Source: Ghiorsea bivora
GTDB lineage: Bacteria; Pseudomonadota; Zetaproteobacteria; Mariprofundales; Mariprofundaceae
Direction: 5' to 3'
Length of the DNA stretch: 64,000 bases
Assembly (NCBI RefSeq): GCF_000744415.1
Contig: NZ_JQLW01000010.1
Span: forward strand, 62,001-126,000
The translations under genes and the position numbers were made by a program. The notes under the pieces are model-generated. The model saw only the letters and a list, made by a program, of their open reading frames with translations, was not told the DNA's origin and made no database searches. Within the stretch, counting starts at the first letter, position 1. Every line of letters begins with the position of its first letter. This document shows positions 867-31,620 of the stretch, in pieces.

Positions 867-3500
867 TTAACGCTTCTTACCGTGACACTGTTTATACTTT
901 TTACCCGAACCACAAGGGCATGGGTCGTTACGTCCAATTTTTTCACCTTGGCGTTGGTATGTTTCAGTAACAGCTTCAGGTTCTTTATTCACAATATTGT
1001 ATTTAATTTTTTCTGGTTCGGGTTGCGGCTCGGGTTCTTTGACTTCAACACGGAACAATGAAATCACAGTTTCTGTGCGAATTTTACCCAACATACTGCT
1101 AAACAACTCATATGATTCATGTTTGTATTCTTGAATTGGATTTTTTTGTGCATAACCACGCAAACCAACACTTTGACGCAGGTGATCCATCGCCAACAAG
1201 TGCTCTTTCCAATGATGATCAAGGATTTGCAATAGCAGCCATTTCTCAAAACCACGCATTTGCTCAGCACCCGTAGCTTCTTCTTTTTCAGCCAGATGCG
1301 CTTTTAGGGCTTCAACCAACTTGTTACGCATACCCTCTGCTGATTCAACATCATCGCTCTCAGCCCAAGCTTGCACATCAGCTTCAATGGTAAGTTTCTC
1401 AAGCAATGTTGTTTTTAAACCTTCAACATCCCAGTTATCTGGAATATCCGATAAAAACTCAGCAACAAGTTCATCCACATAGTCCAACATCATGTCTTCA
1501 ATGACTTCTTGTACATCATCCAATTCAAGCAGTTCACGGCGTTGCGAGTAAATCACTTCACGTTGCTGGTTCATCACATCATCATACTCAAGCAGTTGTT
1601 TACGCATATCAAAGTTGCGTCCTTCCACTTTTTTCTGCGAGTTGGCAATGGCTTTACTTACCCAAGGATGCTCAATCACTTCCCCTTTATCAAAACCCAT
1701 CTTGGTGAGCATGCCTTGCATTTTTTCACCACCAAAAATACGCATCAAGTCATCTTCAAGCGATAAGTAAAAACGGGTTGAACCTGGGTCACCTTGCCTA
1801 CCCGCACGACCTCGAAGCTGGTTATCAATACGACGCGATTCATGACGCTCTGTACCAATAATATGCAAACCACCCAAAGCAATCACTTCATCATGCTCTT
1901 TTTGACAAGCCGCCTTGATTTCAGCTACTTTCTTCGCACGTTCTTCATCACTTAACTTATCCGACAACTGTGCAATCAGCATATTGGGATTACCACCCAA
2001 CATAATATCTGTACCACGGCCTGCCATATTGGTGGCAATCGTGATAGCACCTTTACGACCTGCTTGCGATACAATTTCAGCTTCACGCTCATGGTGTTTG
2101 GCATTTAATACTTCATGTTTAATGCCTTTTTTCTTCAATACTTCCGAAAGCATTTCCGATTTTTCAATCGAAGTTGTACCCACCAATACAGGCGCTCCCG
2201 TATTGGATGTACCCACGATATCTTCTACAATGGCATTAAACTTATCTTCTTGATCACGGTAAATTAGGTCACTTAGATCCTTACGAATCATATCTCTATT
2301 GGTGGGCACAATCACCACTTCCAAATCATAGATTTTTTTGAATTCTTCAGCTTCTGTATCTGCCGTACCTGTCATGCCTGACAACGTATCATACATGCGG
2401 AAGAAGTTTTGGAATGTAATGGATGAAAGTGTTTGGTTCTCAGGCTGAATGGTGACCCCTTCTTTGGCTTCCAAGGCTTGATGTTGACCATCTGAATAAC
2501 GACGACCCGCCATCATACGCCCAGTAAACTCATCAATAATCACCACTTCATTATCGCGCACAATATAATCTTTTTCACGGGTAAATAAGGTATGCGCTCT
2601 TAGACACTGGGTAGCAGCATGCAATAAATTAATGTTTTCAGGGTCGTATAAACTTCCCTCTTTAAGCGCACCAGCTTCACGATAAAGCTCTTCAATATGC
2701 TCCATTCCTTTTTCTGTATAAGAAACAGCTTTATCTTTTTCATCCAAATCATAATCATCAGCATCAAGTTGACGAATCAAACCATCTGTTAATGTGTAAA
2801 GTTCACCTGCTTGCTCAGTGGGCCCTGAAATAATTAATGGTGTACGCGCCTCATCAATCAGGATGGAATCCACCTCATCCACAATGGCAAAGTTGTATCC
2901 ACGTTGCACCAAATCATCAACTGAAAACGCCATATTATCGCGTAAATAATCAAAACCGAATTCATTGTTGGTACCATAAGTGATATCTGCGGCATAAGCA
3001 GCTTGACGGTCTTCATGGGTCATATTGCTCACAATCACACCTGTGGTGAGACCCAATGCCGAATAAAGTTTACCCATTTCTTCAGCATCACGCGAAGCAA
3101 GGTAGTCGTTTACCGTTACCACATGTGCACCCTTACCTGACAATGCATTTAAATATACAGGTAGTGTAGCGGTTAAAGTTTTACCCTCACCCGTTTTCAT
3201 CTCAGCAATTTTACCTTGGTGTAAAATAATACCACCCATCACTTGCGAATCGAAATGACGCATACCCATCACTCTATCCGATGCTTCACGAACAACTGCA
3301 AAAGCTTCAGGCAATAAATCGTCTAAACTTTCACCTTTTTCAATTCTAGCACGAAACTCATCCGTTTTTGCCATCAATGCTTCGTCCGATAACTTACCCG
3401 TCTCATCTGCGAGACTATTCACTTTACTTACAAGTGGATACAAGCCTTTAAGTATACGTTCATTGCGATTACCAAACATTTTGGTCAAAAAGTTTAACAT
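867..3500 (-). CDS. secA: Protein translocase ATPase SecA
   Basis: SecA is the motor that drives unfolded preproteins through SecYEG in the inner membrane. The 877-residue product shows Walker A KTGEGKT near residue 105, the DEVDSILIDEARTPL block, the IGTERHESRRIDNQLRGRAG helicase motif, and a C-terminal zinc-binding SEC-C tail CPCGSGKKYKQCHG that contacts SecB and ribosomes. The frame is open to a start at 3554, but ATG 3500 follows an AGGGGA ribosome-binding site at good spacing and gives the family N-terminus MLNFLTKMFG, so I chose it. Length is normal and all key motifs are present. It is followed by argJ after 2 bp. Confidence 0.97.
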   Translation of the reverse strand: MLNFLTKMFGNRNERILKGLYPLVSKVNSLADETGKLSDEALMAKTDEFRARIEKGESLDDLLPEAFAVVREASDRVMGMRHFDSQVMGGIILHQGKIAEMKTGEGKTLTATLPVYLNALSGKGAHVVTVNDYLASRDAEEMGKLYSALGLTTGVIVSNMTHEDRQAAYAADITYGTNNEFGFDYLRDNMAFSVDDLVQRGYNFAIVDEVDSILIDEARTPLIISGPTEQAGELYTLTDGLIRQLDADDYDLDEKDKAVSYTEKGMEHIEELYREAGALKEGSLYDPENINLLHAATQCLRAHTLFTREKDYIVRDNEVVIIDEFTGRMMAGRRYSDGQHQALEAKEGVTIQPENQTLSSITFQNFFRMYDTLSGMTGTADTEAEEFKKIYDLEVVIVPTNRDMIRKDLSDLIYRDQEDKFNAIVEDIVGTSNTGAPVLVGTTSIEKSEMLSEVLKKKGIKHEVLNAKHHEREAEIVSQAGRKGAITIATNMAGRGTDIMLGGNPNMLIAQLSDKLSDEERAKKVAEIKAACQKEHDEVIALGGLHIIGTERHESRRIDNQLRGRAGRQGDPGSTRFYLSLEDDLMRIFGGEKMQGMLTKMGFDKGEVIEHPWVSKAIANSQKKVEGRNFDMRKQLLEYDDVMNQQREVIYSQRRELLELDDVQEVIEDMMLDYVDELVAEFLSDIPDNWDVEGLKTTLLEKLTIEADVQAWAESDDVESAEGMRNKLVEALKAHLAEKEEATGAEQMRGFEKWLLLQILDHHWKEHLLAMDHLRQSVGLRGYAQKNPIQEYKHESYELFSSMLGKIRTETVISLFRVEVKEPEPQPEPEKIKYNIVNKEPEAVTETYQRQGEKIGRNDPCPCGSGKKYKQCHGKKR

Positions 3501-3630
3501 GGGTTCCCCTAACGGTTTGAATACATCTTTATAATTTGGGACGCAAGATAACAAGCCTTACACATAAAATCATGTGATTTTTGCGGTTATTCACTTTTCA
3601 GTATCATTACTTCAATAAGAAAGGTGTAAG

Positions 3631-5913
3631 TTACTGATATATGAATACTTTTATCTTCTCTCTCAACACATGCTCAGAATAAGGTTTTTGAATAAACCCA
3701 GCCAGCCCTCTGCCAACAAATTGGCTGGTTGCCTCTTGCTCATTATAGCCCGATGAAAGTATGACCTGCACATCAGGTTTAATTGCCCTCAATAAACGAA
3801 AACACTCTTTACCATCCATTTCAGGCATTGTCATATCCAATAAAACAAATTGAATGTCATCTTGATATTCAGTAAACACCGCAATACCTTGTTTACCACC
3901 ATTGGCTGTAACCACAGTATAACCCATATCTTCAAGCATTGCGCAAGCCGTCTCACATATAAATGTTTCATCATCAATCACCAACACCAACCCAGAAACT
4001 TTGTTCAACTGCGTTTTAGATCGCTTCATTTTCTTTTCCTCTGTTGCCGAAGATACAGGGAATATTAATTTAAAAGTTGTGCCTTTACCTTCCTCTGAGT
4101 ACACACGAAGCGCACCTTGGTGACCATTTACAATGCCGAGCATTGCACTCATGCCCAAACCTCGGCCTGAAAACTTCGTTGTAAAAAAAGGATCAAACAT
4201 CTGTTTTTGAACTTCATTACTCATACCACAACCGGTATCAGAAACTTCTAAGAAAACATAATCACCTTCATGTTTTTCAGCGTCCCCATAAGTACCCAAC
4301 AAATAATCCGCATCTGCATACATCTCACCTGTTGCCAAGGTTATTCTTCCAGCCTTACCCTCCATAGCTTCTGCTGCATTCGTTAACAAGTTTAATACTA
4401 CCTGTTGAATTTGTGCTGCATCAGCATCAATTAACGGAAGGTTATCTGGCATGTCATAATGTAACGCAATTTTCTTAGGTATAGAGACCTCAATCAACTT
4501 CATCATATTACGTACCAAATTTGATAAATTAACGGGTTCTACTACAAATTTACCCTTACCAGAATAAGCTAACATCTGCCTACATAAATCAGCAGCACTG
4601 TGACTTGCTTCAACAATGCAATCGATATGTTTATAAACAGGGTCATTAACACGAACTTTTTTTATTGCCAGCGAAGCATTCCCCAGAATTGCAGTCATAA
4701 TATTATTAAAATCATGCGCAATTCCACCAGCAAGAACCCCCAGTGAATTCACTCTGTCTGCATGATGCAACTTTTTCTCCATCTTCTGTTGCAATGTTAC
4801 ATCCCTTTGTATAATAGCAAAACCATTAATACAGTCATTTTTATCATATAACGGGAAAGCATTTTGTGAAACCTGATACAAGGCATTACTTTTGGATTTA
4901 TTAAACAAAAGGTTCAACACAGGTTTACCCGACTGGAGGTTTTTCCATATTTCATGATATTTTAGTTGCCCTACTTCATCACTCCAAACCAGCTCAAGTG
5001 TTTCACCAAGCGCTTCTTCTGCCGAAAAACCGCTCACCCTCGCAAAAGCAGGATTAACATAAATAATCACACCTTCTACATCAGTAACAATGACCAACTC
5101 ATCTGCTTGCTCAATCACGGATGCCAAACGTTTAGATTGCTCCTCTGCAAGAAGTTTGGCTTTAACACTGGAAATCGTTTCATCCATAAGCGAAACAACC
5201 AACACTCCAGCTTCAATAAGAAAGAGTACAATTAAAACATATATCGCTAGAGACCCTTGCTGCAAACCTGTATGTATAACACTCATACCCTGAATAGGTA
5301 CAAAACTAACCCCTGTCATAGCTGTATAATGCATAGAAGAAACAGCAGCCCCCATGAGTACAGCCACAGGGATTTTATACCTTAATTGCCCAAAGGTATA
5401 AGAAAGTTTCACTTCTTCTAATAAATACAGCCCAACACCTGAAACAACAATCGCAATGGCAACAGAAGCAAACATTATCCAATGGTTATGATGCATTGTT
5501 GCATTCACAACCATGGCTGCCATACCTACATAATGCATAGATGCAATAGACAAACCTAAAATCGTCGCCAATATGGCAAGCCTTAAACCTCGAATCTTTT
5601 TTGTATTTGTTATAAATATACCAGTAAAACCCGAAACGACGACTACAAGTAAAAGTGACAATGTCGTCAAATCCAAATCATAACTAACTTTTAATGGTAG
5701 CTGAAAAGCAAGCATGCCCACAAAGTGCATACCCCAAACACCTACACCAAAACTAACACCAAACAATGCTGACCAAGTGTACCTTGCTTTAGCATTTGTT
5801 GCTTTCGCTATTCTTGAAACTGTACTAAAAGCGACAAAAGAAGATACAACAGCAACAAAAATCGATACACCCACTAAAAGCATATCATGAACGCCAACAA
5901 CCTCTAACTGCAT
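3631..5913 (-). CDS. MHYT-domain PAS hybrid sensor histidine kinase with C-terminal receiver
   Basis: This 760-residue inner-membrane sensor starts with a multi-helix MHYT region carrying three MHxxxM repeats (MHFVGM 62-67, MHYVGM 126-131, MHYTAM 194-199). These His/Met motifs are proposed to bind a metal that senses O2, CO or NO. A PAS domain follows (about 262-372), then a dimerisation/phosphoacceptor segment with AHDFNN (His about 400), an HATPase domain (NLLTNAAEAM, DTGCGMS, GRGLGM) and a receiver domain with LLDMTMPEMDG (Asp about 693). The last domain makes it a self-contained hybrid kinase. The start at 5913 follows a GAGGGGGG site; the frame is open to 5952. No cognate output regulator is adjacent; a lone receiver protein at 29864 resembles its receiver. 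The ligand is not known from sequence. Confidence 0.88.
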   Translation of the reverse strand: MQLEVVGVHDMLLVGVSIFVAVVSSFVAFSTVSRIAKATNAKARYTWSALFGVSFGVGVWGMHFVGMLAFQLPLKVSYDLDLTTLSLLLVVVVSGFTGIFITNTKKIRGLRLAILATILGLSIASMHYVGMAAMVVNATMHHNHWIMFASVAIAIVVSGVGLYLLEEVKLSYTFGQLRYKIPVAVLMGAAVSSMHYTAMTGVSFVPIQGMSVIHTGLQQGSLAIYVLIVLFLIEAGVLVVSLMDETISSVKAKLLAEEQSKRLASVIEQADELVIVTDVEGVIIYVNPAFARVSGFSAEEALGETLELVWSDEVGQLKYHEIWKNLQSGKPVLNLLFNKSKSNALYQVSQNAFPLYDKNDCINGFAIIQRDVTLQQKMEKKLHHADRVNSLGVLAGGIAHDFNNIMTAILGNASLAIKKVRVNDPVYKHIDCIVEASHSAADLCRQMLAYSGKGKFVVEPVNLSNLVRNMMKLIEVSIPKKIALHYDMPDNLPLIDADAAQIQQVVLNLLTNAAEAMEGKAGRITLATGEMYADADYLLGTYGDAEKHEGDYVFLEVSDTGCGMSNEVQKQMFDPFFTTKFSGRGLGMSAMLGIVNGHQGALRVYSEEGKGTTFKLIFPVSSATEEKKMKRSKTQLNKVSGLVLVIDDETFICETACAMLEDMGYTVVTANGGKQGIAVFTEYQDDIQFVLLDMTMPEMDGKECFRLLRAIKPDVQVILSSGYNEQEATSQFVGRGLAGFIQKPYSEHVLREKIKVFIYQ

Positions 5914-6158
5914 ATAGCCCCCCTCAACTGTATCATATACTGATACGCACAAAGCAAAACGAAAACAAACATAAAGACAAGCGTTTATCTACCTGAAAAC
6001 TTTTATTTCCCAAAAAGTCAAATTGGATCTTTTACAATTCACCGCCCACTCTAAATAAGTATGATTTTTCTACTTATCCAACAACTTTTTCTGTTCTTAA
6101 TTAATAAACTTCCATTTCCATCAAATGGTTTTCCTTTTTCATGCTGGGAAACATCAAG

Positions 6159-6352
6159 CTAGCTTCTATCTTCCAATGCACCCGCAAGTACATATAAAAA
6201 GTTCATATTTGCCTTTAAACCAGCTTGCTTTAAACACATAAAGACTGCACATCCCCCTCTTCCTCTATATCTGCAACAGATACAATGCCAATTATGGCTA
6301 AGCTTTGCTCAGACTTTGCACCCAAATCTCTTAAATCACGAATTGGCTTCAT
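6159..6352 (-). pseudogene. Frameshifted TfoX/Sxy C-terminal-domain gene, coupled to ygfZ
   Basis: An ATG at 6352 overlaps the ygfZ stop as ATGA. Its frame reads MKPIRDLRDLGAKSEQSLAI and onward for 40 codons to a TAA at 6230. The reading that follows in another frame (KQAGLKANMNFLYVLAGALE) continues the same fold and ends at a TAG at 6159. Adding one base in the G run at 6253-6257 joins the halves into about 64 residues resembling the TfoX C-terminal domain (a 'Lp.iG..s...L..~GI' start and an 'LnlLYaLegAl' end). That domain is found in competence regulators and in small stand-alone proteins. Too short for most automatic ORF cut-offs. A sequencing error in the G run is the main alternative to real decay. 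Confidence 0.62.
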
Positions 6353-7263
6353 TCGCCACAAACACCAAGCACTTGCACTTTATCCCCAGCTTCGGTTTGC
6401 AATGGCTGATTTGCCTCAACCGTTTCAATCGGAAGCAAGGCGATACCTTGATAGGCATCACCATCTTGCGCCAAACTGGTCACTTCACCCACCTTGACCG
6501 TGGTCAACACGGCGCACGGCAGACGCACATCTTTCTCAAGCTTTACGCGATACAGTTTCTTTTTGATGCCACCGCGCCAATGCATACGACTGGTCACTTC
6601 CTGCCCTACATAACACCCTTTATCAAAACTTACCCCATCTCTATCCATCAAATTGGCATTCAATGGATGCAACTTGATATCCCAATCTACACCCAAAAGT
6701 GGTGTTCCTTGCAAAATACGCCCGCGTTCAATTTCATTTTCATCAGCATTACACGACAAAGGTAAATCAGACCCCATCACCCACACCCCATTCTTACTGG
6801 GCTCAGACATACGCAAAATTGAAACCGTGTCGGTATGTGCTGATGCCAGTTTCTCATGCGTAGGCATAGGTAAAGCATTGGCTTGCAAAAAATCATCAAC
6901 ATCACCGCCTTGCACAGAAAACACCTGCCAAGATGAAACTTTACCAATCCTTAGCTCATAACCCAGAGCAAACATACGTAAGCGCTCTACTAAGTTTAAA
7001 GCAAATGCACTGGGACATAAAAACATCACCTCGGCCCAAGTCTCTTTCTTCTTGGTCAGCAAAAGATAAAAGTCTGAAACAGGTTTACCCTGTGGTGTTA
7101 AAATCACACTATAAATAGCCTGTGTTTCAGATAGTTTGGATACATCTTGAGCAACCTGACCTTGCAAATATTTCAAGAGGCTTTCGCCCGAAGCCTTAAT
7201 GACTGCATAAGCATCTCTTTTCGCCACTTTTACTGAATCTATAGGGGTATCTTTTTGCATCAT
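6349..7263 (-). CDS. ygfZ: Folate-binding protein YgfZ (Fe-S cluster maintenance)
   Basis: YgfZ is a tetrahydrofolate-binding relative of aminomethyltransferase GcvT that helps repair or maintain certain iron-sulfur enzymes such as MiaB. The family signature K-G-C-Y-x-G-Q-E is present as KGCYVGQE at residues 215-222, with the conserved Cys217, and is followed by TSRMHWRGGIKKKLYRV. At 304 residues it is close to the usual size. The start at 7263 has a weak GAGAG site; a second ATG follows directly at 7260. Its TGA stop overlaps the ATG of the decayed tfoX-like reading frame, suggesting that the two were once translated together. A DnaA-box-bearing spacer lies upstream. Confidence 0.93.
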   Translation of the reverse strand: MMQKDTPIDSVKVAKRDAYAVIKASGESLLKYLQGQVAQDVSKLSETQAIYSVILTPQGKPVSDFYLLLTKKKETWAEVMFLCPSAFALNLVERLRMFALGYELRIGKVSSWQVFSVQGGDVDDFLQANALPMPTHEKLASAHTDTVSILRMSEPSKNGVWVMGSDLPLSCNADENEIERGRILQGTPLLGVDWDIKLHPLNANLMDRDGVSFDKGCYVGQEVTSRMHWRGGIKKKLYRVKLEKDVRLPCAVLTTVKVGEVTSLAQDGDAYQGIALLPIETVEANQPLQTEAGDKVQVLGVCGE

Positions 7264-31434: not shown

Positions 31435-31620
31435 AGGGAATTATGAATAAGTTTGGGTGGAGAAGATGGTGATTCAAAGTATGCAAGGTCACCAAAAGTA
31501 GACGCTCGTAAACAAAGTGTGAGCTGCATGGAATAGCCAAGCTATTGCTCAAAATCACAATGTAGAATTTGGGTACTCTGGGCGCAAGATACAAATTCAT
31601 GACTTATTCAAAACTTCCCT
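31435..31620. repeat. 186-bp palindromic MITE-like element B
   Basis: Terminal inverted repeats are imperfect: AGGGAATTATGAATAAGT on the left and AGGGAAGTTTTGAATAAGT read inwards from the right. The middle holds a small hairpin AATAGC-CAA-GCTATT (about 31532-31546), similar in layout to element A. No reading frame is present. It fills the spacer between lptG and the AGCS symporter. Bases 31336-31434 and 31621-31665 hold nothing else that I can name. Confidence 0.65.

Follow-up and report, generated by a model that had tools for sequence, protein, structure and literature searches.

A probable remnant of a stand-alone TfoX_C gene overlaps the end of ygfZ in Ghiorsea bivora

The spacer behind ygfZ in the 64,000-nucleotide stretch of Ghiorsea bivora DNA analyzed here (hereafter, the window) is very probably the remnant of a stand-alone gene for the TfoX C-terminal domain (TfoX_C, PF04994), which in its intact form would have about 100 codons and a start overlapping the end of ygfZ, and which lesions of at least three kinds have inactivated. 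These are a frameshift of one base, a conserved tryptophan codon replaced by a stop and indels in the tail, and the remnant would yield at most a 40-residue fragment. The gene was presumably lost under relaxed selection, and its patchy presence suggests that tfoX_C may be dispensable in the genus. The locus combines disabling lesions with intact orthologues at the same place in relatives, the combination by which a pseudogene is recognized. Its parts in the window are as follows.

867 to 3554, minus strand: a gene that we take to be secA, recognized by the look of the sequence rather than via a family search; far flank of the variable interval, conserved at 82-97% identity in relatives sharing the gene order
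3631 to 5952, minus strand: MHYT-PAS-HisKA-HATPase-REC hybrid histidine kinase (Pfam), between the remnant and secA
6075 to 6352, minus strand: TfoX_C-domain gene remnant of the stand-alone type (very probable pseudogene); lower end approximate
6075 to 6143, minus strand: tail carrying several more indels relative to genome G008 (pairwise alignments; bounds approximate)
6159 to 6161, minus strand: in-frame TAG on a conserved Trp position (alignment with Ghiorsea and other TfoX_C rows)
6229 to 6262, minus strand: interval containing the one-base frameshift, best placed at 6244-6242 (breakpoint scan against four domain-intact copies)
6253 to 6257, minus strand: five-G run (a C run on the forward strand), probably not the break site
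6349 to 6352, minus strand: ATGA overlap of the ygfZ stop (TGA, 6351-6349) and the remnant start (ATG, 6352-6350)
6349 to 7263, minus strand: ygfZ (CAF17-like 4Fe-4S cluster assembly/insertion protein), an intact 304-codon open frame (TIGR03317, 78.7 bits; cut-off 49)

A sequence-only reading of this DNA had described two TfoX_C-like halves in different frames behind ygfZ and a start codon overlapping the ygfZ stop as ATGA, and both observations hold. Frame A begins at this start, is closed after 40 codons by the TAA 6232-6230 and matches positions 4-38 of TfoX_C with 22.7 bits, just below the gathering cut-off of 23.1 bits, while frame B matches positions 35-74 with 25.9 bits, above that cut-off, when its TAG is read as X. 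The profile search proposed at the time as a check thus returned similarity for both frames rather than a lack of it. A genome-wide DNA search also recovered the two parts, with 24.4 bits at 6135-6257 (one TAG inside) and 20.3 bits at 6239-6346, and tblastn with an intact relative aligned both halves collinearly to the spacer (44.7 and 52.8 bits). By comparison, the top score in 2000 dinucleotide shuffles of the spacer was 21.9 bits, and scores elsewhere in the window did not exceed 18.1 bits. No single unbroken open frame spans the domain in the remnant, given the frameshift, the TAG and the tail indels, and the whole-genome search found no second TfoX_C place in this genome. A weak similarity to HHH_5 (14.8 bits) lies below the cut-off of that family. 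Viral contigs screened for an alignment to TfoX_C gave 26 pattern stretches, none of which was confirmed.

Within the genus, TfoX_C was matched in five of 16 genomes, namely this one, G003, G006, G008 and G010. The domain is unbroken in the latter four, where it scores 80-85 bits and the start codon again overlaps the ygfZ stop as ATGA; indeed, the overlap is present in all six copies with the start covered (the window, G012, G003, G008, G010 and G006). Comparison of the region downstream of ygfZ, also suggested earlier, therefore yielded a domain-intact copy in four relatives and a different pseudogene in G012. Beyond the domain, the copies vary: the G008 gene is full-length with 100 codons, that of G003 has a frameshift directly after the domain, and the tails in G010 and G006 are interrupted by an inverted-end repeat element about 165 bases long. 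This MITE-like repeat has 22 matches in the genome of the window and 28 in G012 (some of them partial or counted on both strands). It is located at L003:1752-1935, and the window has a partial match at 31525-31618 (G000:C10:93525-93618). In the sister species G012, the copy gained one base at about codons 17-19, lost one further on and contains a nonsense codon, after which comes an IS-like insert. At the contig end (L024:1-120), this insert shows the short beginning of a frame that we take to be a transposase from the look of the sequence rather than from a search. The end of this insert resembles the ends of the 165-base repeat element. No lesions common to the G012 copy and the window remnant were found in the alignment. 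A tree of ygfZ joins the window first to G010 and G006 and then to G012, with support of 100/99 for the four and 93/92 at the three-row fork. Five other genomes (G004, G005, G011, G001 and G015) lack tfoX_C between ygfZ and its next neighbor.

The frames had been proposed to split at a run of five G. The run itself is present, but the break is better placed downstream of it. In a codon-by-codon scan using the four domain-intact copies, the frame change scored highest at codon 36 (6244-6242; protein score 739, 485 matching bases), against protein scores of 714, 682 and 706 and 472, 469 and 473 matching bases for codons 31-33 at the run, although the four relatives are not independent and the scan hence expresses a preference rather than proof. 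The gap in a MAFFT alignment likewise falls downstream, and the run was rejected as the best-supported break site. Past the break, frame B continues the same protein until the TAG at 6161-6159, in a column occupied by Trp in all five Ghiorsea rows and in 21 of the 23 TfoX_C rows that reach it (26 were aligned, three of which end earlier). Homology extends beyond the TAG to about 6075, with several indels relative to G008, G003 and the second G006 copy. The idea that one added base restores about 64 residues consequently fails: its proposed end is this TAG, on a near-invariant Trp within the domain, and since both the TAG and the tail indels would persist, a single base would not return a working domain.

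These lesions bear directly on the choice, previously left three ways, between recent decay, a phase-variable G run and a sequencing error, which we now resolve toward decay given several separate lesions here and domain-intact copies at the same place in four relatives. The number of separate lesions likewise leaves the other two options unsupported. That sequencing or assembly error broke an intact gene is very improbable; one single-base indel by itself could be an error, but several separate errors would be needed within 280 bases, with ygfZ, the kinase and secA unbroken beside them. Moreover, long unbroken frames contain 21 of the window's 26 runs of at least five G or C, which indicates that misreading of such runs is not general. 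We give as little credence to a programmed frameshift with readthrough, or to a shortened but working product, for instance the 40-residue peptide of frame A. Frame A does stay open over 40 codons and preserve the ATGA overlap, yet the sister species G012 has its frame broken as early as about codons 17-19, which speaks against conservation of the short frame, and the domain-intact relatives use a single frame. Slippage switching a phase-variable gene has a negligible probability, for although a five-G run lies close to the frame change, five bases are generally regarded as short for a switch, the break fits better downstream, most runs of this kind in the window sit in unbroken frames, and a change in repeat length alone would leave the TAG and the tail indels in the other phase without repairing the frame. 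The case illustrates that a nearby homopolymer should be taken as the cause of a break only with caution.

Codon-position counts do not cleanly show relaxed selection on the decaying gene and are not used here as support for it. Private changes at codon positions 1 and 2 amount to 15.6% in the remnant versus 4.3% in ygfZ, with position 3 raised too, and the ratio of positions 1 and 2 to position 3 is like that of ygfZ (17:15 vs 17:17, P = 0.81), but these values are confounded because the G010/G006 copy used for comparison was probably imported.

An identity scan in 150-base windows, starting 600 bases before ygfZ (loci L032 and L033 vs L035), points to this import. Up to the scan window starting at base 1202, the identity of G010 with the window genome is 0.75-0.93, and up to base 1072 its identity with G008 is 0.52-0.72. 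From the 3' part of ygfZ through tfoX_C, the relationship reverses sharply, with identity between G010 and the window genome dropping to 0.59-0.67 (bases 1277-1656) and that between G010 and G008 at 0.77-0.89 (bases 1147-1597). The same holds for whole genes: G010 tfoX_C is 0.88 identical to that of G008 and 0.62 to the window remnant, whereas its ygfZ is 0.69 identical to that of G008 and 0.81 to that of the window. The simplest reading of these identities is a recombination event in which the ancestor of the sister pair G010/G006 probably received its ygfZ 3' end and tfoX_C from a G008-like donor.

The interval between ygfZ and secA varies across the genus. Among the readable genomes (G002, G007 and G014 were left out, and the G013 contig has no visible secA), tfoX_C together with a GFA gene occupies the interval in G003, G008 and G006. 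For G006, the orders ygfZ-tfoX_C-GFA and tfoX_C-GFA-secA are on two contigs, perhaps from two strains (contamination is given as 6%). G010 carries tfoX_C alone, G004 GFA alone and G005 the MHYT kinase alone, and the interval is empty in G011, G001 and G015. The remnant and the MHYT kinase are found together in the window and in G012, in the latter across two contigs; the G012 kinase adjoins secA on the other contig and is 83% identical to that of the window, so its layout seems to be the same. None of the genes described for this interval was found in the stretch taken for G009, and the genome of the window has no GFA-family match. A 60% relative of the MHYT kinase with a TAG inside is located elsewhere in the G011 genome. 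No genome showed both a domain-intact tfoX_C and the MHYT kinase at the site (four have the former and three the latter, too few for statistics). It is possible, though we advance it tentatively, that ygfZ-secA is an exchange site at which a tfoX_C(-GFA) cassette and the MHYT kinase are swapped through homologous recombination in the ygfZ 3' end. A decayed tfoX_C plus kinase state in G010/G006, as in this genome and G012, would then have been overwritten by an intact G008-like cassette, restoring a dying gene.

Beyond the genus, TfoX_C was found in 57 and YgfZ in 234 of the 249 genomes in a phylum survey. The listed TfoX_C and ygfZ places are widely separated or fall on separate contigs in four genomes of the same family outside the genus (G039, G054, G070 and G074), and in G031 they are on different contigs, near possible ends; G035, G105, G172 and G058 were left out of this adjacency comparison, the G058 TfoX_C match being below the cut-off. 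A scan of 50 ygfZ loci (L072-L121; the 30 loci L122-L151 from other classes were left out) with a Ghiorsea TfoX_C query gave matches behind ygfZ in five, L072, L073, L074, L075 and L079, all from this genus. The other 45 gave no match, a count to be read knowing that the query could miss distant TfoX_C and that some contigs end near ygfZ. A ygfZ-TfoX_C link outside the genus was therefore rejected, and with all five matching loci within Ghiorsea and no adjacency in the four family genomes, the coupling looks like a local feature of the genus.

As for function, the intact gene would be translated from the start overlapping the ygfZ stop into a small TfoX_C-fold protein, whose likeliest role, judging from what is known of the fold, is that of a putative HhH-like accessory factor, small in size and produced together with YgfZ. 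A solved relative is of similar length (3bqt/3mab, 93 residues; phmmer E = 6e-7). We found no paper joining TfoX and YgfZ, or TfoX and a standalone C-terminal domain, in the part of the literature seen in our search. Taken together, the Ghiorsea genomes show that a small, putatively accessory gene, perhaps translated jointly with ygfZ, was lost in parallel and probably re-imported within a single genus.

Compared with known systems, both halves of the remnant match stand-alone members of the TfoX_C family, from which it differs in being disrupted. The Sxy/TfoX competence co-regulator contains a C-terminal TfoX domain. The intact Ghiorsea gene has this domain in common with it and differs in being without the N-terminal one. 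A full Sxy/TfoX regulator would be expected to come with TfoX_N (PF04993), for which this genome gave no match at E 0.001 (controls were detected in two of 14); hence, the gene is not a full Sxy/TfoX regulator. With ordinary bacterial pseudogenes the remnant shares its multiple lesions, the intact orthologues at the corresponding site in relatives and a patchy presence, with nothing notable differing. Known biology is not overturned, and the remnant is best seen as a commonplace case of gene decay at a locus of patchy content.
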